Shown one piece after another: positions 5,809 to 48,654 of a DNA stretch of 64,000 nt. The notes below the pieces were generated by a model, which saw only the letters and a program-made list of their open reading frames with translations, made no database searches and was not told the DNA's origin. Origin of the DNA: Prevotella sp. (GTDB lineage Bacteria; Bacteroidota; Bacteroidia; Bacteroidales; Bacteroidaceae); contig JAGCOB010000008.1 in NCBI GenBank assembly GCA_017645645.1, forward strand, positions 186,001 through 250,000, read 5' to 3'. The translations under genes were made by a program, and so were the position numbers. How positions within the stretch are numbered: the stretch's first letter is position 1; each line of letters opens with the position of its first letter.

Positions 5809-8800
5809 ATGAATAGTAAGATAAAAACATATATAGATGCGTCTCAAAAAGTCTCTCATCGTTTGGGACGCATCGTCCCATGCCTTGGGACGCATCGTTT
5901 CATGCCTTGGGACGCATCGTTTCATGCCTTGGGACGCATCGTTTCCTTGCTCCTTCTCTTCTTGATGCTAGTATTTGGGGATGTGAATGTGTGGGCACAG
6001 ACGCCACCAGTCGAGATTACAACTGATGAAGATGAAATAAATCATACAGAGAAATTGTATTTAATTCAGACCAATCAGTTCCAGAGCTTCTATATGATTC
6101 CCAATGGGACTAATGTCTCAACTGCAAATCTTCCTAATGAGCAGATGCTGTGGTATTTTAAGGATGCAGGAGAAGATAATAATGGTAACCAATATTACTA
6201 CATCGTCAATAAGAATAAAAAATATATATGTCATGGTGGTGGTACAAGTAATACTGACGCTTCAAGAGGCATTACGTTGGTTGAAAAAACTTCATCCAAC
6301 GAAGGTAGATGTAAGTTCAAACTGATTGAAATTGGTACAGAAGGTTTTTATAATATTAGAACTATAACAGACCAAAAATATTATGCCTTAAATAAGCGGA
6401 GCGGTAGTGTGAGTTCTCAATACCCCATCAGACTGACGGATAGTCAATATGCTTCTGATTTAAACTCGAAATGGAAATTCATTCGTTTTAACGGAACCTT
6501 TACTTGGCCAGATCCCCCATTCACGCCTTCAACAGATACTGAAAAGCATTATTATAAGATTAATAGTAAAATAAGTACCAATTATTATATATCTACAAAT
6601 ACGGATAATAAGGTGACCTTTGCAAGTACTCAGAGTGATAATATGGTATGGTATTTCAAAGAGGTTCCCAGTAACCTTGCAGGTGAGTCTTCATCATGGT
6701 TTAAATACTATTATATTGTCAATCAAAATTCTGATGATCAGTATATGTACTATGATGGTACTGCCACTGATGGTACTACTCAATCAGATGTTGTCAGTTT
6801 AAAAGAAAAGTCAGAGGGAATTGAGGATAGGTATCAGTTTATTATAGTACAGACAGCAAAAACAACTACAAACGATGCACCTGTCGAGTGTTATATGATT
6901 GTTCCTAAGTTGCTTAGAGAAGTGTTGTGGGACTACAATAGTATAGGACCTGATGCTGTATCTGATGGGAGTGTTATAGACATCATTAAAGGTAGAGTCA
7001 ATGATGATACCAAAGACAACTATGCCCATGTGACATTTGCATCAATAGACCAATGTGCAGAGCCAACGATAAGTTTAGACCCATCGACCAATGAGGTAGT
7101 CATCATCTCTTCGGAATCAGGATCAAGTATATATTATACTATATCAGATGGCATTGTAGATGCAGAGACACTTCCATCCCCCACAAGAACAGACAATCCG
7201 TATTCCAGTCCAATTCCTCCCTCTACTGTGACGATAAAGGCAGTTACAGTAAAGAATAATTATTCCAAAGCCAAATCTAATCCTGTAACGAAGACGATAG
7301 TCTATATGCCTACTATTACATTGGAGGATGTTCCTGTTCCATGGATATACGATAAAACAGCAAAGGAACCTTCAATAAGCAGTGTGATGGTAGGAGAGAC
7401 ATCTATCCCAAGCACGTACTATGATATCACTTATACTGATAATATTAATGCTGGAACGGCATCTGTCACTATTAGAGATAATTCAAATAGTGGGTATTTA
7501 ATCTATGGTACTACGAATTTCACCATCTCACAAGCACCTCTGACAGTCACTGCTAAACCGAAGAGCATTGCTTATGGTGATGCTCCAGCGAATAACGGGG
7601 TAGAGTATGATGGCTTCGTAGGAGGAGAAACTTCTACAGTGCTTGGTGGTTCACTTGATTACGATTACAGTTATACGCAATATGATGATGTGGGTGATAA
7701 CTATACTATTACGCCCAAAGGTCTGACAAGTAACAACTACAACATCTCTTATGTCGCTGGTACATTGACTGTCAATCCCAAGGCATTGACTATCACTGCT
7801 GATGCAAAAGAAAAGGCCTATGGCGATGATGATCCTGCGCTGACATATACCTTTGAAGGTCTTGTGGGTAGCGATGCCATTACTGGTGCGTTGAGCCGCG
7901 ATGCTGGTGAGAATGTAGGAACTTATCCTATCAATCAAAACACACTAACTGCAAGTAGTAACTATACCATATCGTACACAGGGGCAAACCTGACTATTAA
8001 TCCCAAGCCACTAACTATCACCGCCAAGTCCAAGACTATCACTTATGGCGAGGAACCTACGAATGATGGTGTGACATATAGTGAATTTGCTCCTGGTGAA
8101 GATGCAAGCGACCTCATTGGCACTCTCACCTATGCTTATAATTATTCCCAATATGGCGATGCGGGTGAATATTCTATCACTCCCAGTGGCTTGACAGGAG
8201 ACAATTATGACATTTCTTATGTTGCTGGTACGCTGACTGTCAACCCGAAGGAGGTGGGTCTTGTTTGGAGTGAAACGACATCTTTCGTTTATGATGCTAA
8301 TAGCCATGCTCCTACCGCCAGCGCTACTGGTATGGTGAATGGCGATGAGATAGGCGTTACGGTATCAGGTGAACAGATTAATGCTGGTGACCATATCGCT
8401 ACGGCTTCTGCCCTGACTGGTAATAAGGCAGGCAACTATGCGCTCCCTGCAGCCAACACGAAAGCCTTTTCCATTACCCCTGTTGCATTGGCTGTTACGG
8501 CTAAAAACCATATTATAATATATGGAGACACACCAGGGAATAATGGTGTGGAGTATAGTGGCTTTGTGGGTGAAGATAATGCAAGTATGCTTGGAGGTTC
8601 GCTGGACTATGCCTATAGTTATGCGCAATATGGCGATGTTGGCGATGACTATACCATTACGCCCAGTGGCTTGACAAGTACGAACTACATCATTTCCTAT
8701 CATAATGGTACGCTGACAGTCAAAAAGAAGACCCTTGGTCTCAACTGGACGAATACGTCGTTTACCTATGATCGCGAAGAGCATTTGCCTACCGTCACGA

Positions 8801-9780
8801 TAGTAGGAATGGTGAATGGCGATGAGGTTAGCGTTACTGTGACAGGTCCCAGTGCCATCAATGCTGGTGACTACATCGCTACAGCCTCTAACCTAAGTGG
8901 CGATAAAGTTGACAACTATAGACTACCTACTGTCACCACACAGACATTTACCATCTCTCCCAAGAGTCTTGGCGATGGCGATTTGCCAGCAGAAGACATT
9001 ACGATAAAACTGACTTCTGAAGGAGAACTGGAGTATGTGAAAGACGGTGAAATCACGTTGACGGCAGATGATTACACCTATGAAATTCACACTGAGGGTT
9101 CTGACCAAATTGTAGCGGTCACAGGTATAGGCAACTATACAGGTACGCTCAGGGGTATCTATGCCAAACCGAAGTTTTATGATGTTGATGGAGAGGGTGC
9201 AGGAAAGGCTGCTGCTGTCTATATGTCATCACGAGACATCAATACATTCGAAGGTGTCAATGCATATACTGTAAAGTCTGTCAATACATTCCTAGGTCTG
9301 CTGACGGTCAGTAAACTTGAATACATCCCGAAGGGTGTTCCTGTGCTGCTGCTCTCAGAATCAGAAGCAACAGGCTTCGTGGTTTCAGAAAAAGACGAGG
9401 AAATAGCAGACATTTCCGAAAGGACAGTCAACAATAATCTGCTGAAGATGGCAGATGCAGACATTCCCGTTGAGACAGCGCAGGCGTATATGTTCTATTT
9501 AGGTGAGTTCGTACTGACAAAAGCTGGAACCATCAAGTCAGGGAAGTTCTACATTCTCAACCCCGACTATACAGACACTTCTGCTGGCTCAGGCATATCA
9601 TCGGCACGTAGAAGTCTGACGATTGTCGAAGAAGAGGTAACTGGCATGACAGACATTCCTAATACAGGAAACAAGTCAGCGGATGACGTATGGTACACGC
9701 TGGACGGTCGCTGCCTGAATGGCAAGCCTGCCAGAAAAGGACTGTATATCCATCAGGGACGTAAGACGGTTATTAAATAA
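5809..9780 (+). CDS. Large exported protein with beta-trefoil-like N-terminus and MBG-type repeats
   Basis: 1,323 residues. The first ~45 residues are largely encoded by a 22-bp tandem repeat; a hydrophobic signal segment (SLLLLFLMLVFG, cleavage near VWAQ) follows. In-frame ATGs at 5809 and within the repeat (5902) could both serve as start. Residues ~80-420 contain two similar blocks (LYLIQTN..., HYYKINS...) resembling lectin-like beta-trefoils. Next comes a chitobiase-C-like segment, then about seven tandem Ig-like blocks of 75-85 residues with YGD..., NY.ISY..GTLTV signatures, typical of MBG domains. The C-terminus (WYTLDGR...GKPARKGLYIHQGRKTVIK) matches the Prevotella-type sorting tail. 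I infer a T9SS-exported adhesin or structural surface protein. Its ligand cannot be read from the sequence. Confidence 0.82.
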   Translation: MNSKIKTYIDASQKVSHRLGRIVPCLGTHRFMPWDASFHALGRIVSLLLLFLMLVFGDVNVWAQTPPVEITTDEDEINHTEKLYLIQTNQFQSFYMIPNGTNVSTANLPNEQMLWYFKDAGEDNNGNQYYYIVNKNKKYICHGGGTSNTDASRGITLVEKTSSNEGRCKFKLIEIGTEGFYNIRTITDQKYYALNKRSGSVSSQYPIRLTDSQYASDLNSKWKFIRFNGTFTWPDPPFTPSTDTEKHYYKINSKISTNYYISTNTDNKVTFASTQSDNMVWYFKEVPSNLAGESSSWFKYYYIVNQNSDDQYMYYDGTATDGTTQSDVVSLKEKSEGIEDRYQFIIVQTAKTTTNDAPVECYMIVPKLLREVLWDYNSIGPDAVSDGSVIDIIKGRVNDDTKDNYAHVTFASIDQCAEPTISLDPSTNEVVIISSESGSSIYYTISDGIVDAETLPSPTRTDNPYSSPIPPSTVTIKAVTVKNNYSKAKSNPVTKTIVYMPTITLEDVPVPWIYDKTAKEPSISSVMVGETSIPSTYYDITYTDNINAGTASVTIRDNSNSGYLIYGTTNFTISQAPLTVTAKPKSIAYGDAPANNGVEYDGFVGGETSTVLGGSLDYDYSYTQYDDVGDNYTITPKGLTSNNYNISYVAGTLTVNPKALTITADAKEKAYGDDDPALTYTFEGLVGSDAITGALSRDAGENVGTYPINQNTLTASSNYTISYTGANLTINPKPLTITAKSKTITYGEEPTNDGVTYSEFAPGEDASDLIGTLTYAYNYSQYGDAGEYSITPSGLTGDNYDISYVAGTLTVNPKEVGLVWSETTSFVYDANSHAPTASATGMVNGDEIGVTVSGEQINAGDHIATASALTGNKAGNYALPAANTKAFSITPVALAVTAKNHIIIYGDTPGNNGVEYSGFVGEDNASMLGGSLDYAYSYAQYGDVGDDYTITPSGLTSTNYIISYHNGTLTVKKKTLGLNWTNTSFTYDREEHLPTVTIVGMVNGDEVSVTVTGPSAINAGDYIATASNLSGDKVDNYRLPTVTTQTFTISPKSLGDGDLPAEDITIKLTSEGELEYVKDGEITLTADDYTYEIHTEGSDQIVAVTGIGNYTGTLRGIYAKPKFYDVDGEGAGKAAAVYMSSRDINTFEGVNAYTVKSVNTFLGLLTVSKLEYIPKGVPVLLLSESEATGFVVSEKDEEIADISERTVNNNLLKMADADIPVETAQAYMFYLGEFVLTKAGTIKSGKFYILNPDYTDTSAGSGISSARRSLTIVEEEVTGMTDIPNTGNKSADDVWYTLDGRCLNGKPARKGLYIHQGRKTVIK
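5864..5950 (+). repeat. Four-unit 22-bp tandem array of 6-5-6 dyads
   Basis: Units start at 5864, 5886, 5908 and 5930. Unit 1 is a perfect dyad TGGGAC-GCATC-GTCCCA plus a 5-bp linker; later units keep the left arm and degrade the right arm to GTTTCA or GTTTCC. The array lies inside the coding sequence upstream of the signal peptide. Because 22 is not a multiple of 3, successive units are read in different frames. An inverted partial copy (GATGCGTCTCA) lies at 5837-5847. Confidence 0.9.
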
Positions 9781-9816
9781 CAAGATAAAGTAACAAGTTG
9801 AAAAAGGACATCATAT

Positions 9817-12800
9817 ATGAAGCAAACGATAAGATTCATCATTTTATTCTTGATACTCTTGATAGTGGGGGCAGGGAATGCCTGGTCTTTAGAACGGAGT
9901 GATATCATCATTAATCCTGTCTTGCCTAATGCCAGTGCGGGAGAAGTGAAGTTGGCAGAGGGGGATGCCTGGCTTTCAGAACGTACTGTGAAAATTATCG
10001 TCACACCAGCTCCTGGCTTCAAGACAAAGAAATCTCTTATCATTGTGGAGAAGATGGTTGATCCTACCAATAGAGCCCCTCAACATCGCACTTCTGGTAT
10101 TGGTCAATTTGAACTGACAGGTACTGACAACTGGATAACTTCAGAAACAGAGTACACTTTTACGGTTCCAGAGGAATATGACGGTGCCTACATCACAGCA
10201 ACGTTTGTGTCCGTGTCCGCTTCTCCCAATGCAATTACCAGTCTTAGCGAAATTACAGATTTTTCGGAAACTGCCAATTATGAGTTAGTGGCAGATATAG
10301 ATGCGTCAGGCTTGAATGCGAGTCTAAGCGAGTTTAAAGGTACGTTGGACGGCAAATACTATAAGATATACAATCTGAGCAAGCCATTGTTCGCTTCTAC
10401 TAATGGTGCCATCATCCGCAATATCATATTTGAGGAAGTCAACATTAGTGAAAGCAATAATGTGGGTGCTGTTACCCGTGAGGCTAAAGGTGCCAGCCGC
10501 ATCTATAATATAGGTATCCTCAGTGGCTCCGTAGGAGGTACTGGCTATACTGGCGGTTTGGTAGGGTTACTTAAGGAAAATGCCCGCGTCATCAACTGTT
10601 ACAGTTATGCGAATATTACGAATGGAACTACGGTGGCTGGTATCGTGGGTCGCAATGATGTGGCTACCACCGCAGCCACACTTGCCACAGGAACGATGGT
10701 GATGAACTGTATGTTCTATGGCGACATCACAGGTGGCACTACGAAATCGCCTGTCTACGGAGGAAATAATATTGATAACCGGAATAGTGATAGTGGTGGT
10801 CTAAATACGTTCAACTACTATTGTTATGAGAATCTAAAGGGTGGTATTCAGGATGGTAGATACTATTGTGCCTTGGCAGTTGAGAAAAAGTACCTTACTC
10901 GTATTGAGTTTTATCGCCAACTATTGAATAGTAACAAGAAACTTGCAGCCTATTATGCCTCGACATCCTCTGTTACGGTTAATCCATCAGACATGGCGAA
11001 ATGGGTGTTGGAAACGGCGGACAGAACCATTACTGATCCTTCCCCATTTCCTGTATTGAAAGCCCAAGGGCGTTATCCTTCTATCATCAATTACGACGCT
11101 GAAAACGCCCCAGATAGTTCTTTCGTTGGAAGAAATAATGGTGGCAAGCTAGGACGAACACTGACGGTCCATATTGGTCAAGTAGGAAGCAATGCACCAA
11201 ATGGAGCAAGCATTATCAGACGTGGTGCCATACAATTGGAGCGATTAGATAAAGATACCACTCGCTATAATTTCAACTACGACAAGGTGCAGCTACCATA
11301 TTATAATGATGTGGGAACGGGTAACTATACAGGAAATAAGGTGGTGACTGGTTGGAAGATAACAAGTATTACGGCTGTTGATAACGATCCCTACTCCTCT
11401 GCCAACTATAACTACAGTAAGGAATATTCTTCGGAGGCTACCTATTTCGATTATCCGAACTATAATTTTGCTGACCGCAAGAGTTCTAACAAAGACCTCT
11501 ATAGTGTCAGTGGTCGTGTATTCTCACAGGGAGCATATTTTGATGTACCCTATGGGGTAACAAGTATCACTATAGAACCTTATTGGGGTAATGCGGCATA
11601 CGTTGCCGATGAGTATCTGGACGTGGTTTGTAAAATGCAACAAACGACTAGGACATCTACTTCTAATAGGAATGATTATGTCGCTCAGAACGTAACTCAA
11701 TTGGGCAAACAGTTCGACTCCCAGACAATCACCATTAATGGCAGCCCCCAGACGGTTTATACCTCTATCTCTGCAGCTCTTAATGATAGCCATCTTACTG
11801 GTTCTACGGTTTATGACAATGCTGTGGTGCTGGTAGGCAATTTACATCAAATTGGTGTTCCTTCAGATGGAGACAAACCCTTTACAATGATGTCTGTTGA
11901 CTTGGATAAAGATAATGAACCGGATTGCAGTCTGATTTATTGTGACAATAATCGTTGCACAGTGTCACCCATACGATTTGATTTCCTAAATATCCCTGGT
12001 ATGGCTCAGGCTCAGAAACCTAACGGATCAGATGTACTTCTAAATGCAGCTATATTCAGAACTTTGGGATGGTTTGAGATAACCAACACAGCAATGATGT
12101 ACTTTACTCAGTATGAATATGAAAATACACTAGATATTACAAAGTCAAACTCTCCTCTTATTCTCCTTGGTGGTTATATCGATCAGTTTGTATCTACTCA
12201 GAGTACTGTAGTCAACGGAAATACGATATATATCCATGTAGGCAGTAATGTGTTGATTAACTCGTTTGGACTCGGTACCCATAGTGATGGTAAACAATCA
12301 ACACCACATGTTCCCGTGTCGGTGACAGGAGGCGACTATATTGGCTTCTATCTCACAGGAACCTACAACCAAAATGCTTACATAAAAGATGACAATGCAG
12401 AATGTTACATCAGTGGTGGTCACTTTGGTGAATTAGCAGGAGCCGCACAGGAGCAAATAGGTAAAGATAAAGATACAAAGAAGGGCAATGTGCGTTGGCA
12501 AATCTATGATGCAGATATCACTGAATTCTATGGTGGTGGTGTCAACGATGCCAAGCCTGTTCAGGGAAATATAACCACAGATATATTCAATAGTCATGTA
12601 GGTCTCTTCTGTGGTGGGCCGAAGTTTGGTAATATGACTAAGAAGAGCGAGACTGACACAGGGAAGAGCGTTACCACTACGGCTGTAGGATGTACTTTCG
12701 GCAAATATTTTGGAGCAGGGTATGGAGGAATTTCTTATAGCCGAAAAAAGTATTATGATGCTACTGGTCCTAACTGGAACACTCTTCAAGATCACTATAC

Positions 12801-27327: not shown

Positions 27328-27359
27328 AATGAGAAATGAGAAATGAGAAATGAGAAATT
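27328..27359 (+). repeat. Heptamer GAGAAAT array
   Basis: Four tandem copies of the 7-mer GAGAAAT lie between the tRNA and the 3' end of the next minus-strand gene. It is one of several 7-bp arrays in this window. Confidence 0.85.
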
Positions 27360-37602: not shown

Positions 37603-37656
37603 GTTACGGGATAACGGAATACCGGGATGCCGGGATGCCGGAAAGCCGGTATAACG
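37603..37656 (-). repeat. 8-bp CCGGGATG array between lpxH and the Fe-S factor gene
   Basis: Units ACGGGATA, ACGGAATA, CCGGGATG, CCGGGATG, CCGGAAAG and CCGGTATA follow at an 8-bp period. Related arrays occur at 38448-38487 (inside the P-ATPase) and 44840-44887 (end of rluD). Confidence 0.85.
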
Positions 37657-40076: not shown

Positions 40077-40106
40077 ACCTTTTTCTTTTTTTTCGTTTTC
40101 TGAGTG

Positions 40107-40114
40107 CAAAGGTA
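40107..40114 (-). promoter_or_regulatory. -7 element of the P-ATPase gene
   Basis: The minus strand reads TACCTTTG about 30 bp upstream of the ATG at 40076. The -33 region lies in the operator dyad at 40126-40142. Confidence 0.6.
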
Positions 40115-40125
40115 TGGAAAGCGTT

Positions 40126-40180: not shown

Positions 40181-40183
40181 AAG

Positions 40184-40870
40184 TCAGAGTATTCCTTCCT
40201 CGTGATAGCTATAATAATGTCCGTCAGTCACGATGACGTGGTCGAGAAAGTGGATGCGCATGATGTCACAGGCCTTCTTAATGTTTTGGGTCAGATGGTT
40301 GTCCTGTTCACTGGGGTGCAGGTTGCCTGAAGGGTGGTTATGGCAGACGGCGAGGATGGTGGCACTGGCAAGGATGGCTTCGCGCAGGATGATACGGATA
40401 TCGACAGCCACCTCAGTGATGCCACCGTGGGCGATACGCAGTTTCTTGATGAGCTTGTAGTTCTGGTTCATCAATAATACCCAGAATTCCTCTACGTCCA
40501 AGTCTTGCATGATGGGACGCATATGGTTGTAGATACGTGTGGCCGTTCCACAGTCAGGGCGTTCCTCTGCTGTCTCCATCTGTCGCCGCTTGCCTAACTC
40601 ACAGGCGGCGAGAATGGTGATGGCCTTGGCCTCACCGATACCGTTATATTCGCAGAGTTCGCAAATACTTTTCTTTCCCAGGGTATTCAGGTTGTTGTTA
40701 CAGTCGCTGAGTATCCGTTTCATCAGGTCGACGGCACTCTCCTTCGGGGAGCCAGAGCCGATGAGGATGGCAAGCAGTTCTGCACTGCTCAGGGCTTCTG
40801 CCCCAAGATGCATCATTTTCTCACGTGGGCGATCTTCTTCAGCCCATTGGTTGATACTTAATTTATCCAT
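40184..40870 (-). CDS. radC: RadC-family JAB-domain protein
   Basis: 228 residues from the ATG at 40870 ([20 protein letters not shown]). The N-terminal UPF0758 domain includes [15 protein letters not shown] (~25-39) and a helix-hairpin-helix ([21 protein letters not shown], ~75-95). The C-terminal JAB/MPN metalloprotease-like motif [14 protein letters not shown] (~176-189) is complete. The cellular role of RadC is unsettled despite its historic DNA-repair name. It follows the glycosyltransferase gene with 28 bp between. Confidence 0.93.
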
Positions 40871-40898
40871 TGTTGATAGTTGATAAATTAAAGGATGA

Positions 40899-41945
40899 TT
40901 ATTGATAGAATGTTTTCTCAAAAGCCTGGAACTCATCTTTTCCTTGTACACATCGCTTCCACCATGCTTCGATAAAGCCGCAGCCATAGCCCATCAGTTG
41001 GGTGAAGGCGGCAGGAATGCTGAGCAGTCCGACTTTCAGACTTTTATTCTGAATGGTTGAGTCGATGAGGATGATGAGGCTGTATAATAGAATCGGTAAC
41101 CACGGGGCGAAGCACATCCAATAGAACTGGTCGTGGTCGACGTAGTGCATGAGGGCACGACCGATAGCGGAGACGAGGATGAGTCCAATGACTCCTACCG
41201 TGAATACCATCGGCAACAGATGAACGAGTTTCATTGTACCAGGATGACGCTTCTCTAAGTTGATACGGGCAATACCACTGTTATAGACCTGTCGGAAGAA
41301 CTTACGGAAGTCCGTACGACGCTTGTGCCATACCCATGCGTCCGGGAATAACAGGGGCTGATAGCCTGCTTCCACCATGCGATAGCTGAAATCAATATCC
41401 TCACCGAACCGCATCTTCGAGAAGCCGCCAAGTTGCAGGTAGACATCCCGACGGATACCCATATTGAAAGAACGGGGATAGAACTTGTCGAGTTTCTTCT
41501 TACCTCCCCGGATACCACCGGTCGTGAAGAAGGAGGTCATGGAATAGCTGATGGCTTTTTGGACTGGCGTAAAGGAAGGATGGGAGGCATCGGGACCGCC
41601 CCAAGCGGCTATTGGCCTTTGGCCGTTAGCTGTTAGCTCTTTCTCTGTTGCCTCTATATACCCTTCGGGAAGGACGACATCACTGTCGAGGATGATGACA
41701 TACTCACCTTTGGCACGTTCCACGCCATAGTTACGGCTCTGTCCGGGACCGCTGTTGTCCTTATAGTAATAATGCAAATCAAGGATGTCTGCGTATTTGT
41801 CGCAAACATCCTTGCATGGTTTCTTCGATCCGTCCTCCACAATCACTACCTCGAAGTCCTTAAGCGTTTGGGAGCAGAGGCTCTCAAGCAACTCGTCCAC
41901 TTCGTCGGGGCGATTGAATACCGGAACAACGATGCTATAGTTCAT
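40899..41945 (-). CDS. Family 2 glycosyltransferase, membrane-associated
   Basis: 348 residues from the ATG at 41945 (MNYSIVVPVFNRPDEVDELLESL). GT-A motifs are present: VIVEDGS (~34-40), SGPGQSRNYGVERAKGEYVIILDSDVVLP with its metal-binding DSD (~66-95), and RFGEDIDFSYRMVEAGY (~174). The C-terminal ~110 residues hold about three membrane helices. It likely transfers a sugar to a lipid or envelope polymer at the inner membrane. ELTANGQRPIAA (~104-115) is a heptamer-repeat insertion. An upstream start would translate another heptamer array and is not favoured. Confidence 0.9.
   Translation of the reverse strand: MNYSIVVPVFNRPDEVDELLESLCSQTLKDFEVVIVEDGSKKPCKDVCDKYADILDLHYYYKDNSGPGQSRNYGVERAKGEYVIILDSDVVLPEGYIEATEKELTANGQRPIAAWGGPDASHPSFTPVQKAISYSMTSFFTTGGIRGGKKKLDKFYPRSFNMGIRRDVYLQLGGFSKMRFGEDIDFSYRMVEAGYQPLLFPDAWVWHKRRTDFRKFFRQVYNSGIARINLEKRHPGTMKLVHLLPMVFTVGVIGLILVSAIGRALMHYVDHDQFYWMCFAPWLPILLYSLIILIDSTIQNKSLKVGLLSIPAAFTQLMGYGCGFIEAWWKRCVQGKDEFQAFEKTFYQ
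41609..41640 (-). repeat. Heptamer array inside the glycosyltransferase gene
   Basis: Plus-strand units ATTGGCC, TTTGGCC, GTTAGCT and GTTAGCT follow at a 7-bp period and are read in frame as ELTANGQRPIA. Confidence 0.8.
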
Positions 41946-41946
41946 A

Positions 41947-42000
41947 GCTTTTGGTCTTTGGCTTTTGGCTAATAGCAAATAGCTAACAGCCAATTGCCAT
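41947..42000 (-). repeat. Long heptamer array between efp and the glycosyltransferase gene
   Basis: At least seven degenerate heptamers (TTTGGTC, TTTGGCT, TTTGGCT, AATAGCA, AATAGCT, AACAGCC, AATTGCC) fill the gap exactly, from just after the efp stop to the next start codon. Confidence 0.85.
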
Positions 42001-42001
42001 C

Positions 42002-42568
42002 TTACTCCTTTGCACGTGCCAGATAGCTACCGTCACGGGTATCAACCTGAATCAGGTCACCCTCGTTGATGAACAAGGGAACACGTACTTCCACACCGGT
42101 CTCCAACGTAGCGGGCTTCAGGGTGTTGGTGGCTGTGTCGCCCTTGATGCCAGGCTCGGAATGAGTCACGCGGAGGATGGTCTTCACAGGCATTTCGGCA
42201 AAGAGGACAGTACCGTCGGTGGTATCACTGACAACAGAAACGACATCACCTTCCTTCATATACTCATGACCGATGACGAGGTCGTTGGCGATAGGAATTT
42301 GCTCAAAAGTCTCCTGGTTCATGAAGATACGACCTTCCTGATCCTCATAGAGGTACTGATAGTCACGGTGCTCAATGACAACGTCCTCGAGTTTCTCACC
42401 GATGTTGTAACGACGCTCCAGTACACGACCGTCAGTCACGTTCTTCAACTTGATGTTCATGATGGTGTTGCCCTTTCCCGGCTTACGGTGCTGGAAATCG
42501 ATGCAAACCCAGATAGCACCATCCATACGGATAGCGGTTCCTTTCTTAATGTCTTGTGAGTTAATCAT
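42002..42568 (-). CDS. efp: Elongation factor P
   Basis: 188 residues from the ATG at 42568 (MINSQDIKKGTAIRMDGAIW); an upstream ATG at 42697 would traverse the promoter and a 7-bp repeat. EF-P relieves ribosome stalling at polyproline. The loop carrying the modified residue reads RKPGKGNTI (~31-39), with the usual Lys conserved. The C-terminal signature IKGDTATNTLKPATLETG...VPLFINEGDLIQVDTRDGSYLARAKE is typical. It is probably the first gene of the efp-glycosyltransferase-radC transcript. Confidence 0.97.
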   Translation of the reverse strand: MINSQDIKKGTAIRMDGAIWVCIDFQHRKPGKGNTIMNIKLKNVTDGRVLERRYNIGEKLEDVVIEHRDYQYLYEDQEGRIFMNQETFEQIPIANDLVIGHEYMKEGDVVSVVSDTTDGTVLFAEMPVKTILRVTHSEPGIKGDTATNTLKPATLETGVEVRVPLFINEGDLIQVDTRDGSYLARAKE

Positions 42569-42604
42569 ATAAATATAAATAATGTATTTTGTTATTTTCG
42601 GGTG

Positions 42605-42612
42605 CAAAGGTA
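42605..42612 (-). promoter_or_regulatory. -7 element of efp
   Basis: The minus strand reads TACCTTTG 36 bp upstream of the efp start codon. Confidence 0.6.
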
Positions 42613-42619
42613 CGAAAAA

Positions 42620-42648
42620 TAGTGAAAAGTGAAAAGTGAAAAGTGAAC
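42620..42648 (+). repeat. Heptamer GTGAAAA array upstream of efp
   Basis: Four tandem units of GTGAAAA at a 7-bp period lie between the efp and rpmH promoters. Confidence 0.85.
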
Positions 42649-42663
42649 AATTTAGGTAGAAAC

Positions 42664-42694
42664 TTGCACAATTCGAATTAATTATGTAATTTTG
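42664..42694 (+). promoter_or_regulatory. rpmH promoter
   Basis: TTG at 42664-42666, a 20-bp spacer and TAATTTTG at 42687-42694 fit the Bacteroidetes promoter pattern. The resulting rpmH leader would be ~125 nt. Confidence 0.65.
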
Positions 42695-42722
42695 CACCCC
42701 GAAACTCTATTTTCGGAGTGCG

Positions 42723-42779
42723 AAGACAGGCTACACCTCAGCAAAAAGCGAGCTTTCTGCGTTCGGTTTGCACTGTCTT
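42723..42779 (+). promoter_or_regulatory. Structured 5' leader of rpmH
   Basis: An outer pairing AAGACAG (42723-42729) with CTGTCTT (42773-42779) encloses a second hairpin GCAAAAAGC/GCTTTCTGC (42741-42760). No open frame is present. It could be a ribosomal-protein autoregulatory leader, but no family is recognised. Confidence 0.45.
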
Positions 42780-42825
42780 AATCAGCCCGAATTGACGAAT
42801 AATAACAATAAAATAAGATAAGACA

Positions 42826-42981
42826 ATGAAAAGAACATTTCAGCCACACAATCGCCGCCGCGTGAACAAGCATGGTTTCCGTGAGCGTATGGCATCAAAG
42901 AATGGTCGTCGCGTACTGGCTTCTCGCCGTGCAAAGGGTCGTAAGAAGTTGACCGTATCTGACGAGCATCACGGAAAATAA
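42826..42981 (+). CDS. rpmH: 50S ribosomal protein L34
   Basis: 51 residues beginning [19 protein letters not shown] and continuing [22 protein letters not shown], the full L34 signature. The last residues SDEHHGK are a Bacteroidetes-type tail. The gene has its own promoter, a structured leader and a terminator, so it appears monocistronic here. Confidence 0.98.
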
Positions 42982-43013
42982 TCTCCGTTTGAAGAAGGAG
43001 TAAAGGAAGAATG

Positions 43014-43049
43014 TCGGGAGTAGGCGAAAAGTCAGCTCTCGATTTTTTT
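43014..43049 (+). terminator. rpmH terminator
   Basis: TCGGGAG (43014-43020) pairs with CTCTCGA (43036-43042) with one G-U pair, followed by a run of seven T. Confidence 0.75.
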
Positions 43050-43058
43050 AGTCTATTA

Positions 43059-43090
43059 TTTGGTGTTGTCGATAATTCTTTGTACTTTTG
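43059..43090 (+). promoter_or_regulatory. Promoter of the PASTA-rluD-ddl operon
   Basis: TTTG at 43059-43062, a 20-bp spacer and TACTTTTG at 43083-43090, 33 bp before the start codon. Confidence 0.75.
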
Positions 43091-43123
43091 TCGTTTAGAT
43101 AATTCAGTACTTATAATATAATA

Positions 43124-43798
43124 ATGAACGCAAAGGAATTCATGGGCAAGATAGCCAGTCATTATATCCTCCTCCATCTGCTTGCCATGGCAGTGGTGAT
43201 CGTCTTGTTATGCGTTGGTGTCAAATACGGATTAGACCTTTATACGCATCATGGAGAGGGTATTGACGTACCCGAGTTAAAGGGGATGACCTACCTGAAG
43301 GCGAGACTCCTGTTGGATGAGGAAGGACTGAATATTGTGGTTAGCGACTCCGGCTATGTGAAGACCCTGCCAGCCGACTGTATCCTTGCTCAGACCCCTG
43401 GTAAAGGCACGAAGGTGAAGTCCGGACACACCATCTATGTGACTGTCAACTCTCCCTCATCTCCCACTTTTGCCATTCCTGACATCGTGGACAACTCCAG
43501 TTATCGGGAGGCAGAGGCGAAACTGATGGCGATGGGCTTTAAGTTGACACCACCCCAGCAGGTCGTCGGGGAGAAAGACTGGGTCTATGGTATTATCTGC
43601 CGTGGACGCAGGGTATCGAATGGCGACCGTATCCCTATTGACTATCCGTTGACACTGATGATTGGCAAGGGAAACTATGACGAGTCGGAGGGTATGGAAT
43701 TTGTGGACCCGACCTACAGTCCTGATATGGTAGACCAGCAACCGACTGAGGTGGACGATTTCGAGGAGGTTACTATTCCTCCCGTAGGTAGTGAATAG
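43124..43798 (+). CDS. Membrane-anchored PASTA-domain protein
   Basis: 224 residues. One N-terminal membrane helix (~17-37) is followed by two PASTA domains in the periplasm: VPELKGMTYLKARLLLDEEGLNI (~48-70, to ~108) and IPDIVDNSSYREAEAKLMAMGFKL (~119-142, to ~182). The tail is acidic. PASTA domains bind peptidoglycan fragments or beta-lactams in kinases and PBPs; here there is no enzymatic domain. It precedes rluD by 6 bp and lies in the operon that also holds ddl, consistent with a wall-related role. Confidence 0.88.
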   Translation: MNAKEFMGKIASHYILLHLLAMAVVIVLLCVGVKYGLDLYTHHGEGIDVPELKGMTYLKARLLLDEEGLNIVVSDSGYVKTLPADCILAQTPGKGTKVKSGHTIYVTVNSPSSPTFAIPDIVDNSSYREAEAKLMAMGFKLTPPQQVVGEKDWVYGIICRGRRVSNGDRIPIDYPLTLMIGKGNYDESEGMEFVDPTYSPDMVDQQPTEVDDFEEVTIPPVGSE

Positions 43799-43804
43799 AA
43801 TGAT

Positions 43805-44866
43805 ATGACAGAGAAACTGGATGACATACTCCTGGAGGAAGAGGACGAAGGACAGGGGGAGCTTTACGAGCACCTGCGTCTGGAGATCGACCGTGGACAG
43901 GTACCTGTCCGTATCGACAAGTATATGTCGGAACATGTCCAGCACTCCTCGCGTAATAGGATCCAGAAAGCGGCGGATGCCGGTTTTATCCAGGTCAACG
44001 GCAAACCCGTTAAGAGCAACTATAAGGTGCGTCCCGGGGATGTCATCACCCTGATGCTCGACCGTCCGCACTATGATACGACCATCGAACCGGAGGAGAT
44101 GCCACTGGATATCGTCTATGAGGACGACCAGTTGATGGTCATCAACAAACCGGCAGGTCTGGTGGTGCATCCTGGATGTGGGAACTTCCATGGAACTCTG
44201 GTCAATGCCGTTGCGTGGCATCTGCGTGACTTGCCAACCTACGATCCCAATGACCCTTCTGTGGGACTGGTACACCGCATCGACAAGGATACTAGTGGTC
44301 TACTGGTCATTGCCAAGACACCCGAGGCGAAGACAGAGTTGGGTGCCCAGTTCTTCAACCACGATACGCATCGCAGCTATCATGCCTTGGTATGGGGAAA
44401 CTTCACGGAGGATACGGGACGTATCGAAGGGAATATCGGACGCGACCCGAAAGACCGTCTGCGCATGGCTGTCTTCCCTCCTGGTTCAGAGACAGGAAAG
44501 TCTGCCGTCACGCATTATAAGGTGTTGGAACGGTTTGGTTACGTGACGTTGGTGGAGTGTCGCTTAGAGACAGGACGTACCCACCAGATCCGTGCCCACA
44601 TGAAACATATCGGACATCCGCTGTTCGGGGACGAGCGCTATGGAGGAACAGAGATTCTGCGCGGTGAGCGTACCGCCTCCTATAAAGCCTATATCCAGAA
44701 CTGTTTTAAGCTCTGTAACCGTCAGGCACTGCATGCTAAGACATTGGGCTTCGTTCATCCCGTGACAGGACAGCAGATGGACTTCACCTCGGAACTGGCG
44801 TCGGATATGGCAGCGTTGCTTGAGAAATGGAGAAATTATAGCCGGCCTCCCGGCATCCCGGAATAA
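43805..44866 (+). CDS. rluD: RluA/RluD-family pseudouridine synthase
   Basis: 353 residues. An S4 RNA-binding domain (VRIDKYMSEHVQHSSRNRIQKAADAGFIQVNG, ~36-67) precedes the catalytic domain with VNKPAGLVVHPGCGN (~115) and the active-site motif VHRIDKDTSGLLVIAKT (~156-172), whose Asp is catalytic. LVECRLETGRTHQIRAHMKHIGHPLFGD is also typical. It probably modifies 23S rRNA helix 69. The last residues (SRPPGIPE) and stop codon come from an 8-bp repeat array, so its C-terminus differs from usual. Confidence 0.93.
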   Translation: MTEKLDDILLEEEDEGQGELYEHLRLEIDRGQVPVRIDKYMSEHVQHSSRNRIQKAADAGFIQVNGKPVKSNYKVRPGDVITLMLDRPHYDTTIEPEEMPLDIVYEDDQLMVINKPAGLVVHPGCGNFHGTLVNAVAWHLRDLPTYDPNDPSVGLVHRIDKDTSGLLVIAKTPEAKTELGAQFFNHDTHRSYHALVWGNFTEDTGRIEGNIGRDPKDRLRMAVFPPGSETGKSAVTHYKVLERFGYVTLVECRLETGRTHQIRAHMKHIGHPLFGDERYGGTEILRGERTASYKAYIQNCFKLCNRQALHAKTLGFVHPVTGQQMDFTSELASDMAALLEKWRNYSRPPGIPE

Positions 44867-44887
44867 CGGCATCCCGGCATAACGAAA
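44840..44887 (+). repeat. 8-bp CCGGCATC array at the rluD 3' end
   Basis: Units CCGGCATC, CCGGAATA, ACGGCATC, CCGGCATA and ACGAAATA follow at an 8-bp period. The array includes the rluD stop codon and runs toward ddl. It is the complement-style relative of the array at 37603. Confidence 0.85.
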
Positions 44888-44910
44888 TAATAATAAAAAA
44901 AAAAGAAAAT

Positions 44911-45900
44911 ATGAAAAACTTAAAACGTGTCATTGCCATCGTTTGTGGTGGCGACTCTTCGGAGCACGATGTGTCATTGCGCTCCGCTCAAGGTATCTAT
45001 TCGTTCTTCGACAAGGAACGATATGATGTGTATATCGTGGATGTGAAAGGTCAGGACTGGAACGTCGAACTGCATGACGGTACGACGGCACGCATCGACC
45101 GTAACGACTTCTCGTTTGTCGAGGACGGTGAGGCAAAGCGTTTTGACTATGCCTATATCACCATTCATGGTACACCGGGTGAGAATGGTATCATGCAGGG
45201 TTATTTTGATCTGGTAAGAGTACCCTACAGCACCAGTGGTGTGTTGGTGGAAGCAATGACCTTTGATAAGTTCGTGCTCAACCAGTATCTGCGTGGCTAT
45301 GGCATCGCCGTTGCCGACTCGCTGTTGATCCGCAAGGGCTATGAGGAATTGGTGAGCGACGAGGAAATAGAACGTCGTATCGGAATGCCTTGTTTCGTCA
45401 AGCCTGCTGCTGACGGCTCATCTTTCGGTGTGTCGAAGGTGAAGGAGGCCGACCAACTCGCTCCAGCCATCCGTAAGGCGATGATGGAAAGTCCTGAGGT
45501 AATGGTGGAGCAGTTCCTGGAGGGTACGGAGATCACGATGGGTATCTATAAGACCAGGGAGAAAGCGGTGCTGTTGCCGATTACCGAGGTGGTGACCCAG
45601 AATGAGTTCTTCGACTATAACGCGAAATACAATGGTCAGGTCCAGGAGATTACGCCGGCCCGTATCTCGGAGGATACTGCCCGCCGTGTCCGTGAGATTA
45701 CCAGTCATATCTATGACATCCTGCATTGCAACGGTATCATCCGTATTGACTATATCATCTCGCCGAAAGGCAAGATTACGATGCTGGAGGTCAATACTAC
45801 CCCGGGAATGACGGCTACCAGCTTCATCCCCCAGCAGGTGAAGGCTGCCGGACTCTCCATGACCGACGTACTGACAGAGATCGTAGAAAACCAGTTCTAA
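44911..45900 (+). CDS. ddl: D-alanine--D-alanine ligase
   Basis: 329 residues. An ATP-grasp ligase that makes the D-Ala-D-Ala dipeptide used by MurF. Motifs are VCGGDSSEHDVSLRSA (~10-25), IHGTPGENGIMQGYFDL (~88-104), FVKPAADGSSFGVSKV (~165-180), VEQFLEGTEITMGI (~195) and the Mg2+/product region RIDYIISPKGKITMLEVNTTPGMTATSFIPQQ (~277-308). It lies downstream of rluD with the repeat array between. Confidence 0.97.
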   Translation: MKNLKRVIAIVCGGDSSEHDVSLRSAQGIYSFFDKERYDVYIVDVKGQDWNVELHDGTTARIDRNDFSFVEDGEAKRFDYAYITIHGTPGENGIMQGYFDLVRVPYSTSGVLVEAMTFDKFVLNQYLRGYGIAVADSLLIRKGYEELVSDEEIERRIGMPCFVKPAADGSSFGVSKVKEADQLAPAIRKAMMESPEVMVEQFLEGTEITMGIYKTREKAVLLPITEVVTQNEFFDYNAKYNGQVQEITPARISEDTARRVREITSHIYDILHCNGIIRIDYIISPKGKITMLEVNTTPGMTATSFIPQQVKAAGLSMTDVLTEIVENQF

Positions 45901-45903
45901 ATT

Positions 45904-46016
45904 GCCCCCTAAGTTAGGGGGATGGGGGTCTGAACAAGACTCCTGTTACATATAGTTTGTAAGATATGGAAGACAATCAACATCGTTCAGACCCCCACCC
46001 CCCTAACTTAGGGGGC
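45904..46016 (+). repeat. MITE-like element with terminal inverted repeats (ddl-acyltransferase)
   Basis: GCCCCCTAAGTTAGGGGG followed by TGGGGGTCTGAAC at the left end is repeated in inverse order at the right end. The outer sequences match the element at 34386-34522, while the centres differ. It begins three bases after the ddl stop and its right arm is inside the next reading frame. Confidence 0.85.
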
Positions 46017-47198
46017 TTTGAGGAGTTTGATGAGATACGGCCTTACGAGGTCGGGGAGATGAAACAGGCGTTTGAGGAACTGATTAACGACCGTCAGTTC
46101 TCGCTGTTGCTGAAAGGTTTTGTGCCCTGGCTTCCTAAATCGATACGCAATGGTCTGTTGCGTCTTGCCTTCATCGGTGTGAAGACTCCACTGGATTTCC
46201 AGTTGCGTTTCATGAAACCTATCGTCTGGTATTTCGTCCGTAAATACACTGATGGTCTTAGTTTCGATGACGCTACACTTCGCCAACAGCCAACAGCCAA
46301 CAGCCAACAGCCAGAAGACCGTTACACGTTCGTCTCCAACCACCGTGACATCGTGCTTGACTCCGCCTTCCTCGATGTCCTGCTCAATAAGCATGACTAT
46401 CCGACAACGGTAGAAATCGGTATCGGTGACAACCTGCTGATTTATCCGTGGATTAAACGACTGGTACGGATGAATAAGGCATTCACCGTGCGCCGTGGAC
46501 TGACGGCTCATGAGATGATGAAGAGCAGTCAGTTGATGAGCCGTTATATCCACTATGCCGTCACTCAGAAGAAGGAGAATATCTGGATAGCCCAGCGTGA
46601 GGGTAGGGCGAAAGACTCGGATGACCGTACCCAGGACTCAGTATTGAAGATGCTGGCGATGGGAGGCGAAGGTGAAATGGCTGACAAACTCCGCGAGCTG
46701 AACATCGTGCCTCTTACCATCAGTTACGAGTATGATCCCTGCGACTACCTGAAGGCACAGGAGTTTCAACAGAAACGGGATAATCCTGCCTTTAAGAAAA
46801 GCAAGCAGGACGACCTTGATAATATGAAGACGGGTATCTTCGGTTATAAGGGACGGGTGCATTATCATTGCGGAACCCCTGTCAACCAGTGGCTCGACGA
46901 ACTGAACGACCTGCCCAAGAACGAGTTCTTCAAGGAGGTGGCACACCGCATGGACACGGAGATCCATCGCCACTACAAACTCTATCCCTGCAACTATATC
47001 GCCCTGGATCTTCTAGATGATTCTAGAGCATCTAGATATTCTAGTCATTATTCAGAAGCAGACCAACAGCGCTTCGAGTCCTATCTCTCCCAACAGCTTG
47101 CGAAGATCAATATTCCCAACAAGGATGAGGCTTTCCTCCGTGAGCGGATGCTGACGATGTATGCTAACCCCCTCCGTAACTATCTTGCCGCCCAATGA
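45966..47198 (+). CDS. Glycerol-phosphate-type acyltransferase family protein
   Basis: 410 residues from the ATG at 45966. The acyltransferase motif is SNHRDIVLDSAFLD (~120-133), an NHxD variant of the PlsC/PlsB family, and IWIAQREGRAKDSDD (~200-214) matches the substrate-binding block. It probably acylates a lysophospholipid or related alcohol at the inner membrane. About the first 18 residues (SDPHPPNLGG) are encoded by the right arm of a palindromic element; a start at 46059 (MKQAFEEL) is the alternative. Two further repeats are read in frame: QQPTANSQQP (~106-115) and LLDDSRASRYSSH (~349-361). Confidence 0.82.
   Translation: MEDNQHRSDPHPPNLGGFEEFDEIRPYEVGEMKQAFEELINDRQFSLLLKGFVPWLPKSIRNGLLRLAFIGVKTPLDFQLRFMKPIVWYFVRKYTDGLSFDDATLRQQPTANSQQPEDRYTFVSNHRDIVLDSAFLDVLLNKHDYPTTVEIGIGDNLLIYPWIKRLVRMNKAFTVRRGLTAHEMMKSSQLMSRYIHYAVTQKKENIWIAQREGRAKDSDDRTQDSVLKMLAMGGEGEMADKLRELNIVPLTISYEYDPCDYLKAQEFQQKRDNPAFKKSKQDDLDNMKTGIFGYKGRVHYHCGTPVNQWLDELNDLPKNEFFKEVAHRMDTEIHRHYKLYPCNYIALDLLDDSRASRYSSHYSEADQQRFESYLSQQLAKINIPNKDEAFLRERMLTMYANPLRNYLAAQ
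46282..46313 (+). repeat. GCCAACA heptamer array inside the acyltransferase gene
   Basis: Four perfect GCCAACA units and a partial fifth are read in frame as QQPTANSQQP, just before the NHRD active-site motif. Confidence 0.9.
47009..47046 (+). repeat. TCTAGA-type repeat inside the acyltransferase gene
   Basis: TTCTAGATGA, TTCTAGAGCA, TCTAGATA and TTCTAGTC recur within 38 bp and encode LLDDSRASRYSSH. It is related to the murF array at 31386. Confidence 0.8.
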
Positions 47199-47857
47199 AG
47201 AAGTTTTTGTATGCAGCCATTTTATGGCTGCCCGTATTGACAGCCTGTACCACCGACAGCTACGAAAAGGGTGAGGGCAAGTATTCCCTGATGCAGGCAG
47301 AAATGGTCGACCTGAGCATTAATGGACAGAAAGAGGCTGCCGCCTTTTTCCTGGACGATGGTAGCCGTTTCACGCTGACCCCTCCTGTCACCGCCAAGTG
47401 GATAGAGACGGCAGACACGGTATACCGTGCCGTGCTGTATTTCAACAAACTCAGTGAGACGACGGCGGAAGCAGTGTCGCTAGGTGCCGTACCCACCCTC
47501 CGTGCCGTCAAGCACTGGCAACTGAAAGTGCAGCCAGAGGATCCTACGGGTATCGAGAGTGCCTGGCTAAGCAAGAACGGTAAGTACCTCAACCTCGCCC
47601 TGTTGCTGAAGTCCGGACAGGCAGACGATAATGATGGGATCCAGACCGTAGGACTCGCCCAGGATACCATCCGTAAGAATGACGACCATACCTGCACGGC
47701 GTGTTTCCGTCTGTTGCACGACCAGTGCGGTGTCCCCCAGTATTATACCATCCGTCGTTACATCAGCATCCTCCTTCCCGACACTGTCGCATTAGACACC
47801 ATCCGCCTGACCATTCCCACCTACGAGGGCAAGAAGGAACGGGTGTTTATTCCGTAA
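47195..47857 (+). CDS. NigD-like lipoprotein
   Basis: 220 residues. The lipobox is LTAC (Cys18). The body is beta-rich in two halves: an OB-like N-terminal part (DGSRFTLTPPV...VYRAVLYFNKL) and a C-terminal sandwich (KYLNLALLLKSG...HTCTACFRLLHD), the layout of NigD-like proteins of Bacteroidetes. Their function is unknown; the name derives from a bacteriocin-region gene. It is coupled to the acyltransferase by an ATGA overlap and is followed by a large palindromic repeat. Confidence 0.8.
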   Translation: MKKFLYAAILWLPVLTACTTDSYEKGEGKYSLMQAEMVDLSINGQKEAAAFFLDDGSRFTLTPPVTAKWIETADTVYRAVLYFNKLSETTAEAVSLGAVPTLRAVKHWQLKVQPEDPTGIESAWLSKNGKYLNLALLLKSGQADDNDGIQTVGLAQDTIRKNDDHTCTACFRLLHDQCGVPQYYTIRRYISILLPDTVALDTIRLTIPTYEGKKERVFIP

Positions 47858-47872
47858 GTCATTTCTTACCAG

Positions 47873-47962
47873 ACACTACAGAAGTTTTTTCATTGAATTT
47901 AATGTCACTAATGTCATAAATGCCCTGTTTATGGGCATTTTTTAGTGACATTAGTGACATTG
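47873..47962 (+). repeat. Left boundary palindromic repeat of the VirE module
   Basis: The stretch contains the stem AAATGCCC/GGGCATTT flanked by AATGTCACTAATGTCA and TAGTGACATTAGTGACATT, and on its outer side ACACTAC and AGTTTTTT. A near-identical inverted copy lies at 51109-51203. It could also act as a terminator for the NigD-like gene. Confidence 0.85.
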
Positions 47963-47995
47963 AGGATCTGTTTTGGTAAGAAAATGGGGAAAAAG

Positions 47996-48025
47996 TTGCA
48001 AAATTGAAAAATTTTTTGTATCTTT
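47996..48025 (+). promoter_or_regulatory. Promoter of the small cysteine-containing protein
   Basis: TTG at 47996-47998, a 19-bp spacer and TATCTTTG at 48018-48025, 49 bp before the chosen ATG. Confidence 0.6.
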
Positions 48026-48074
48026 GCACGTGATTTCAAAACAAAATATTAATCAACTAATTAACTTAACAACT

Positions 48075-48521
48075 ATGATTTCAAACTGTCTTGTTTTTAA
48101 GGAGATTCCGAGAACGTTCATGCTGTGCTTCAACGGTGAGTGTGCCATGCGTGAGAACTGTCTACGTTTTCAGGCAGGTATTCAGGCGAGTCGACAATGG
48201 GATTGGGGAACTGCCGTCTTCCCGTCAGCCCTGAAAGACGGGCAGTGCCCCTACTACCGGAAGGTAGAGGAGGTACAACTTGCCTATGGCTTCCATGGGC
48301 TGTATATAAATGTACCCAGGTATGAGCGTTCCATGATGCGCAAAATGGTCACCGACTATATCGGTTCTGTAGGCGGTTATTACCGCTACCATTACGGAGA
48401 ACGGCTGCTGACTCCGAAACAGCAACAAACCATTCTGCGTTTCTTCACATCTCGCGGCTATGGAGAGGGAATCTTCTTCGACCACTATGAAACAGCCTAT
48501 AACTTCGAGGAACATGAGTAA
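48075..48521 (+). CDS. Small cysteine-containing protein of unknown function
   Basis: 148 residues from the ATG at 48075 (MISNCLVFKEIPRTFMLCFNGECAMRENCLRFQAG); an upstream ATG at 47973 would lie in the promoter. Six Cys occur, clustered as C..C....C near residues 18-29 and C-P-Y at ~58. A conserved-looking tail reads KQQQTILRFFTSRGYGEGIFFDHYETAYNFEE. I recall a similar Bacteroidetes DUF family (possibly DUF6078) but cannot confirm it. The Cys pattern could bind a metal. It precedes the VirE-type gene in an accessory module. Confidence 0.7.
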   Translation: MISNCLVFKEIPRTFMLCFNGECAMRENCLRFQAGIQASRQWDWGTAVFPSALKDGQCPYYRKVEEVQLAYGFHGLYINVPRYERSMMRKMVTDYIGSVGGYYRYHYGERLLTPKQQQTILRFFTSRGYGEGIFFDHYETAYNFEEHE

Positions 48522-48560
48522 TCCCTCGTCGGGATGCCCCCTGACACCTGTTACACGACA

Positions 48561-48654
48561 TGGAACGGTGTGTTCCATAAGGTGGAACTAGTTGTTCCAT
48601 GGCATGGAACAAAGTATTCCATAGGGTGGAACAAGTCGTTCCCATGGCTGGAAC
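48561..48654 (+). repeat. 22-bp-period array of TGGAAC-N5-GTTCCA dyads
   Basis: Four dyads start at 48561, 48583, 48605 and 48627, and a fifth half-site lies at 48649, an exact 22-bp spacing. The arms stay almost constant (TGGAAC, GTTCCA) while the five-base spacers (GGTGT, TAGTT, AAAGT, AAGTC) and linkers vary. It lies between the small protein gene and the VirE-type gene. Confidence 0.95.

Follow-up and report, generated by a model that had tools for sequence, protein, structure and literature searches.

We analysed a 64,000-nucleotide stretch of a Prevotella sp. genome (assembly GCA_017645645.1, contig JAGCOB010000008.1, positions 186,001 to 250,000), hereafter the window, in which short half-sites of alternating orientation form two tandem arrays. 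Array 1 lies inside an open reading frame (ORF), and array 2 is located between a gene for a DUF6078 protein (upstream) and a gene for a BT4734_N/VapE helicase (downstream). The features are as follows.

5809..9780, + strand: ORF for an MBG_2-domain protein, the N-terminal region of which contains array 1
About 5853..5946, strand not applicable: array 1, with TGGGAC, GTCCCA and GTTTCA half-sites at an 11-bp pitch, inside ORF 5809-9780
48075..48521, + strand: DUF6078 gene (PF19555, E 4.8e-33)
48550..48654, strand not applicable: array 2, with 10 half-sites at an 11-bp pitch, GTTACA first and TGGAAC last
48708..50561, + strand: helicase gene with BT4734-like_N (PrimPol-like), VapE-like and DUF3874 domains

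Arrays of mirrored half-sites

Both window arrays have a 6-5-6-5 layout in which the orientation of the half-site alternates every 11 bp, the 22-bp period being two half-sites. Array 2 reads GTTACA-cgaca-TGGAAC-ggtgt-GTTCCA-taagg-TGGAAC-tagtt-GTTCCA-tggca-TGGAAC-aaagt-ATTCCA-taggg-TGGAAC-aagtc-GTTCCC-atggc-TGGAAC, and the spacer of array 1 is GCATC. The first half-site is degenerate in both (CTCTCA at 5853 and GTTACA at 48550). An initial annotation of the window had claimed an exact 22-bp period at the two places, and both arrays are present as it described; its reading of array 1 as a row of TGGGAC-GCATC-GTCCCA dyads holds for the first unit and fails for the later ones, which pair TGGGAC with GTTTCA or GTTTCC. 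The location of array 1 reads like the signal-peptide region of its ORF, and in genome G035 (L044) a secreted protein that looks similar likewise has an array at its N-terminus. Slippage could cause phase variation of array 1, as 22 is not divisible by 3.

The pattern TGGRAC-N5-GTYCCA, with at most one mismatch, matched the window 8 times, as compared to 0.65 +/- 0.88 times in shuffled sequences, none of 100 shuffles reaching 8, and 7 of the 8 matches fall in array 1 or array 2. In the whole assembly (2.09 Mb, 64% complete) there were 32 forward dyad matches versus 2 for the reversed pattern. These correspond to 12 arrays, both window arrays among them, and 2 lone matches in apparently coding sequence, the same number as in the reversed control. 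Two-dyad patterns of four arm types were found in 6, 10, 24 and 2 of 100 genomes of the genus, whereas the reversed controls yielded none for three arm types and, for the fourth (2/100), matched a single genome at one place. The presence of further 22-bp arrays in related Prevotella, beyond what the reversed controls yield, is thereby borne out.

We collected 97 distinct arrays of the GTYCCA type from 80 of 111 stretches, among the matches listed, and from additional loci; all of these 80 stretches bear Bacteroidales titles, which is not a claim of exclusivity. Arms were conserved and spacers variable in arrays of this type. The outermost half-sites were GTYCCA on the left and TGGRAC on the right in 72 of the 97 arrays, and the natural unit is therefore GTYCCA-N5-TGGRAC. 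Six half-sites were most common (50 arrays), followed by 8 (14), 10 (9), 7 (6) and 9 (5), with other counts in 13. Thirteen of the 97 were located within ORFs of more than 200 amino acids, and some arrays sit far inside reading frames. A few single arrays are graded from TGAGAC over TGGGAC to TGGAAC (L033, L038, L042, L103). The arrays are short rows of mirrored half-sites, one per helical turn, scattered in gut bacterial genomes. When 111 array-bearing loci were queried with the two proteins encoded beside array 2, 14 loci (two of which, L049 and L080, are one place) matched one or both, and the match always adjoined the array.

In G034, G088 and their kin (L047, L050-L058, L132, L137, L140) we observed many dispersed arrays beside TGCATACACTAA- or TACACC-like repeat runs, the flanks of some arrays being conserved over about 100 bp.

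The DUF6078 protein and the helicase

The mechanically called ORF of the window DUF6078 gene begins at 47973, and the likely start codon is at 48075. The protein scored 115 bits against PF19555 (gathering cut-off 27) and had no match in PADLOC, PHROGs or NCBIfam at the limits used. An alignment of 98 DUF6078 proteins revealed three invariant positions (C18, C58, G72) and seven nearly invariant ones (C23, C29, P50, Y102, G108, G128, F135); there was no histidine among the conserved positions, and thus no conserved histidine pair. The N-terminal part of the helicase matched PrimPol in PADLOC (E 3.5e-13), the only PADLOC match of the two array 2 neighbours, and the remainder matched phage helicases and primases in PHROGs.

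A helicase gene adjoins 45 of 111 DUF6078 genes, always on the same strand (25 downstream, 20 upstream), and no helicase match was obtained for the other 66 within flanks of up to 3 kb. We viewed 18 of the loci with an upstream helicase farther out and observed a period-22 stretch upstream of the helicase in nine (L386, L390-L396, L404), between helicase and DUF6078 in L398, and as a single A+T-rich stretch far upstream in L400, while none was seen in the remaining seven.

Period-22 arrays adjoin DUF6078 genes

DUF6078 was present in 60 of the 100 Prevotella genomes sampled. From 122 matches we analysed 111 genes, having excluded nine partial, weak or contig-end matches and two full-length genes (G074:C109, G082:C36), and one further gene with too little 3' sequence was omitted from the period tests. 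In an arm-blind test with a threshold of 28/44, 68 of these 110 genes had a period-22 stretch no more than 350 bp away, as compared to 14 of 1098 control pieces cut from the same DUF6078 loci. The stretch was downstream of the gene in 53 cases (p 2.7e-48) and upstream in 15. Other periods from 16 to 29 were detected at no more than 8 of the 110 genes, and looser and stricter thresholds yielded 74 and 60 genes, respectively. An arm-blind dyad scan of the same genes recovered the 11-bp half-site spacing downstream in 33 and upstream in 12, while the remaining spacings between 7 and 18 were each recovered downstream in 0-2 of them. In genomes without GTYCCA arrays, the arrays near the DUF6078 stop codon had different arms in an unchanged layout, and GTTCCC/TGGAAC-like dyads were located upstream of both excluded full-length genes, which are included in no count.

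Outside the genus, DUF6078 was rare (9 of 295 genomes of the order, our own included). Twelve of 13 such loci had a period-21/22 stretch of at least 26/44 within 400 bp; these include a 7-bp simple repeat (L384) and two A+T-rich stretches (L377, L385). Plasmid and phage records yielded 9 DUF6078 matches, and in all 5 of those that we read the array was located just 3' of the stop codon. The Treponema saccharophilum plasmid pTS1 (L418), from a spirochaete and thus from outside Bacteroidota, contains DUF6078 and a GTTTCA-type period-22 array. At a Parabacteroides distasonis locus, DUF6078 is followed by a BT4734-family gene. In L420, also from Parabacteroides distasonis, the AGTACT-type array 3' of DUF6078 falls within the beginning of a gene annotated as pbpC.

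Arm type follows the DUF6078 clade and the genome

The arm types vary by lineage and include GTYCCA, RTTCCC, TTACCA and GTYTCA. On a DUF6078 tree of 109 rows, inferred by a quick method that gave long-branch warnings, the 12 arm labels of 40 labelled rows required 12 changes (minimum 11), whereas shuffled labels required 29.1 on average and none of 200 shuffles were as low. One change each sufficed for RTTCCC, AGTACT, GTATCA, GTYTCA, GTACGT and GTTTTC, and two were needed for GTYCCA. In G026, DUF6078 paralogs from different clades have different arms beside them.

The arm beside DUF6078 also recurs in arrays across the genome. TTACCA arrays were present in 6 of the 7 genomes with TTACCA beside DUF6078 versus 4 of 93 others, GTYTCA arrays in 2 of 2 versus 0 of 98, and GTYCCA arrays in 4 of 5 versus 2 of 95. 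The corresponding numbers for RTTCCC were 7 of 7 versus 17 of 93, with the arrays away from DUF6078 in G025, G033, G035 and G083 deduced from counts that exceed the capacity of the adjacent array. Five of the 17 (G020, G037, G050, G088, G094) have RTTCCC/RTCCC arrays upstream of the helicase-DUF6078 operon. Fisher tests of the four arm types gave p values from 2e-4 to 1e-6, uncorrected for relatedness. G061 (mixed arms) and G083 (a 21-bp GTTCCA array) were left out of this comparison; their inclusion changes the GTYTCA and GTYCCA fractions to 2/3 and 4/6.

The same place with different arms inside genes

We also compared arrays at orthologous positions inside genes. For one alpha-L-rhamnosidase-like gene, 41 orthologs were compared. 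The 12 closest to a query that itself contained the array (our own included) have an array after the same motif at the same codon. The arms are GTTCCA in our own genome, RTTCCC in G397, G081, G033, G007, G082, G035 and G443, degenerate RTTCCC in G432, GTCCGA/TCGTAC in G074, and GTTTCT-like in G083 (degenerate) and G095. The G438 ortholog has a partial repeat only (23/33). The simplest history for this gene would be a single gain before the 12 orthologs split, followed by changes of the arms.

In a gene for an S-adenosylmethionine (SAM) methyltransferase, arrays of 8 half-sites that encode 28 residues start at the same codon in our own genome (GTTCCA arms), G035 (RTTCCC), G037 (GTYCCC) and G055 (GTTTCC), and the G055 arms are those beside the DUF6078 gene of that genome. 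These arrays were read by eye in 5 of 30 loci (the four above and G007), with a match to the gene in 56 genomes. The G031 ortholog (L288) has a long inverted repeat where the array would be.

Arrays in RsmF were likewise read by eye, in G035, G007 and G074 out of 30 loci, with a match in 94 genomes; the GTCCGA arms in G074 match the array beside one of its DUF6078 genes. In many Prevotella genomes the RsmF linker (L312-L341) contains differing inverted or simple repeats, like a general landing site, and given these unrelated repeats it is a weak place for the comparison of arms. A third gene (L342-L371) contains GTTCCA arrays in our own genome and in G035, period-22 stretches with other arms in G067 and G051, and degenerate stretches of similar length in G083 and G081. 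The encoded peptides differ, and what persists is therefore the DNA pattern and its place. A clean-bordered insertion could not be read in the genes compared, as the array-free orthologs have variable linkers.

Spacers, mismatches and gene context

To quantify the similarity of the 5-base spacers we used 77 arrays from 13 genomes, some of them related. Spacers were more alike within than between genomes, both for inner (0.51 versus 0.21) and outer spacers (0.29 versus 0.11), and none of 500 label shuffles gave such a difference. Together with the graded arms, this similarity suggests that the arrays are copied or homogenised, in addition to any selection on the arms.

We then counted mismatches between paired arms on the sense strand in 28 arrays located 3' of DUF6078, where G.U and A.C mismatches were equally frequent (39 and 38, p = 1). 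The ratio was 12:16 in upstream arrays and 11:17 in another 13 sequences, which include the non-coding array 2 of the window. These counts are not independent, neighbouring pairs sharing half-sites. An RNA stem would tolerate G.U pairs, and because there is no wobble bias we read the arrays as sites in duplex DNA.

The genes flanking 56 arrays, as called mechanically, were oriented +- in 18 cases, ++ in 15, -+ in 14 and -- in 9, which shows no promoter bias, and no Pfam family occurred in more than 3 of 99 array-flanking proteins. An Rfam scan of the window at the gathering threshold yielded a single match, a tRNA away from the arrays.

The window contains other short repeats. Dyad-like tandem repeats at 44842-44890 and 37607-37649 (CCGGCATCCCGG-type and CGGGATGC, respectively) possibly represent another repeat family, and perfect 7-bp tandem repeats are located at 27328-27358 (AATGAGA), 42621-42647 (AGTGAAA) and 46282-46313 (GCCAACA).

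What the arrays may be

DUF6078 genes are associated with arrays, the arms match, the places are shared and the symmetry is that of duplex DNA; array and DUF6078 together point to an undescribed protein-and-repeat system. The initial annotation had proposed either a single family of dispersed repeats or protein sites set in arrays, and both are supported together. The scatter of arrays in our own and other genomes agrees with the former, and the latter gains support from an arm type that follows the neighbouring DUF6078 family and from the lack of wobble bias. The protein partner, the 11-bp pitch, the coding location of array 1 and the differing arms at shared places go beyond that annotation. 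On sequence comparisons, the arrays are probably DNA sites for which DUF6078 is the cognate protein; this protein is small and contains conserved cysteines, and its gene often has an array next to it. A DUF6078 dimer would bind each GTYCCA-N5-TGGRAC dyad and dimers would stack along one DNA face at 11 bp per half-site, a placement on one face that the pitch makes plausible, while the conserved cysteines, two invariant and two nearly so, may bind zinc. At the operon of DUF6078 and the VapE-type helicase, the adjacent array would serve as operator or origin, and arrays elsewhere would be copies or captured sites, rewritten upon a change in DUF6078 specificity. It is rather unlikely that such rewriting draws on DNA made by the helicase/PrimPol. 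A homing-type system, in which DUF6078 and VapE/PrimPol would copy their own array and overwrite older arrays at fixed places, is a similarly speculative extension; if true, the arrays of a genome come to carry the arm of the resident DUF6078, even within the reading frames of enzymes.

Several observations weigh against DUF6078 as the cognate protein. The period-22 test identified no array at 42 of 110 DUF6078 genes, some of which have arrays farther off or in another layout, and a PDB profile search with DUF6078 gave no significant match, its one hint being a lambda-repressor-like protein (E 0.39). The arm types were assigned by eye, TTACCA needs three changes on the tree, and the GTCCGA and GTACCA labels, with two rows each, perform no better than shuffles. 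The p values are too small because related genomes are not independent. None of the RTTCCC arrays were found near DUF6078 in the 12 remaining RTTCCC-array genomes, and G056 has GTYCCA arrays and no DUF6078 that we could find in a genome 62% complete. A single DUF6078 gene was found in G035, although this genome has RTTCCC as well as GTYCCA arrays, for which older sites, a missed second DUF6078 gene or a misbinned contig are alternative explanations. A clear array is absent from the shared place in 29 of the 41 orthologs of the rhamnosidase-like gene. Finally, the window DUF6078 is placed beside the RTTCCC proteins (97), apart from four other GTYCCA proteins, and therefore its arm arose separately or was acquired, or its place in the tree is wrong; a recent switch of arm at the window locus is possible. 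As a side observation on G035, contig C15 (L045, L343) has GTTCCA arrays in one gene, with RTTCCC arrays located elsewhere in the genome.

The arrays could instead be a selfish element resembling REP (repetitive extragenic palindromic) sequences, that is, short mobile repeats without host function that are moved in trans by a DUF6078-VapE/PrimPol module. Spacers commoner within than between genomes, copies that share flanks in some genomes, arrays inside long ORFs and helicase genes on the same strand as DUF6078 would all fit. Plain insertion does not, however, predict places that are common to several species and yet differ in arms, no insertion with clean borders was read, DUF6078 has no conserved histidine pair and most DUF6078 genes have no helicase match in their flanks, for which reasons we find this explanation doubtful. 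Unlikely, too, is a transcription factor with its regulon, in which DUF6078 would regulate array-adjacent genes and the arms would drift with its specificity, without any copying. Such a factor would account for arms that match the DUF6078 neighbour, for the same positions with different arms, for arrays that adjoin the DUF6078-helicase operon and for the TGAGAC-TGGGAC-TGGAAC grading inside single arrays. The gene orientations and flanking families, by which a promoter-only role was set aside, speak against it, as do arrays deep within reading frames and genome-specific spacers.

That the arrays act as tandem stem-loops in mRNA is highly improbable. Arrays 3' of DUF6078 may be transcribed and the arms of array 1 are G.U-compatible (TGGGAC/GTTTCA), but we set this reading aside on the even counts of G.U and A.C mismatches; the arrays are moreover flanked by genes in both orientations, and the sole Rfam match in the window lies elsewhere. 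Local tandem slippage and chance, without any system, has a negligible probability. Array 1 does resemble near-identical 22-bp duplications (96% matches) and its growth by slippage is possible, but for the family as a whole slippage is refuted by the dyad scan and the period test; the reversed-pattern controls, arms that are kept while spacers vary and the correspondence between arm and protein also speak against it.

If the arrays are sites of DUF6078, this domain of unknown function gains a DNA target for experiments, often evident from the sequence beside its gene. The arrays would also form a natural series of cases where the protein family and its scattered sites have apparently changed together several times, coding sequence included. 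The evolution of DNA-binding specificity, and the likeness of dispersed repeats within a genome, could then be tested with a small protein and short oligonucleotides.

Comparison with known systems

In the open PubMed Central (PMC) literature, the sole source searched, DUF6078 is not named in any paper, and the titles and abstract openings on palindromic, 22-bp or REP-type repeats from Prevotella or Bacteroidales contain nothing that matches these arrays. PINSR, a dispersed intergenic repeat of Prevotella intermedia/nigrescens, is similar in being a dispersed Prevotella repeat; it differs in its length of 188 bp, and section 3.4 of the paper names no protein partner (PMC4755523). We rejected PINSR as the identity of the arrays on its size and missing terminal inverted repeats (PMC4755523). 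Clustered regularly interspaced short palindromic repeats (CRISPR-Cas) were rejected as well, since the half-sites alternate, the 5-bp spacers recur rather than being unique, and PrimPol, in place of any cas gene, is the one PADLOC match beside array 2.

Iteron arrays occur with a Rep initiator and a helicase/primase in plasmids and satellites. The arrays studied here resemble iteron replicons in their period of about 22 bp, beside the gene for a small protein and, in 45 of 111 cases, a gene for a VapE-type helicase. They differ in that the locus studied in the window belongs to a large contig of the chromosome, the arrays are dispersed, the half-sites alternate and 66 of the 111 have no helicase match. 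Rickettsia palindromic elements are palindromic repeats that are read in frame within protein genes; unlike these, the arrays repeat 6-bp half-sites in tandem, are matched by a protein of the same genome and vary in their arms from genome to genome.

The nearest analogue is the REP/RAYT system, the protein hallmark of which DUF6078 lacks. REP/REPIN sequences are short scattered palindromic repeats, mainly extragenic and single or in pairs, with the gene for a REP-associated tyrosine transposase (RAYT) beside its own repeats. RAYT belongs to the Y1 HUH transposases, which share a conserved HxH pair together with a tyrosine, whereas in DUF6078 cysteines are conserved and a histidine pair is not. 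Like RAYT, the DUF6078 gene is located beside its own type of repeat, and that type is dispersed in the genome. Unlike REP sequences, the repeats form tandem arrays with a peak at 6 half-sites and an 11-bp pitch, some of them in frame inside genes, and their arms differ at shared places. Relative to the open PMC literature, what is new is the combination of an unrelated partner protein, arrays that alternate every 11 bp and different arms at shared places.

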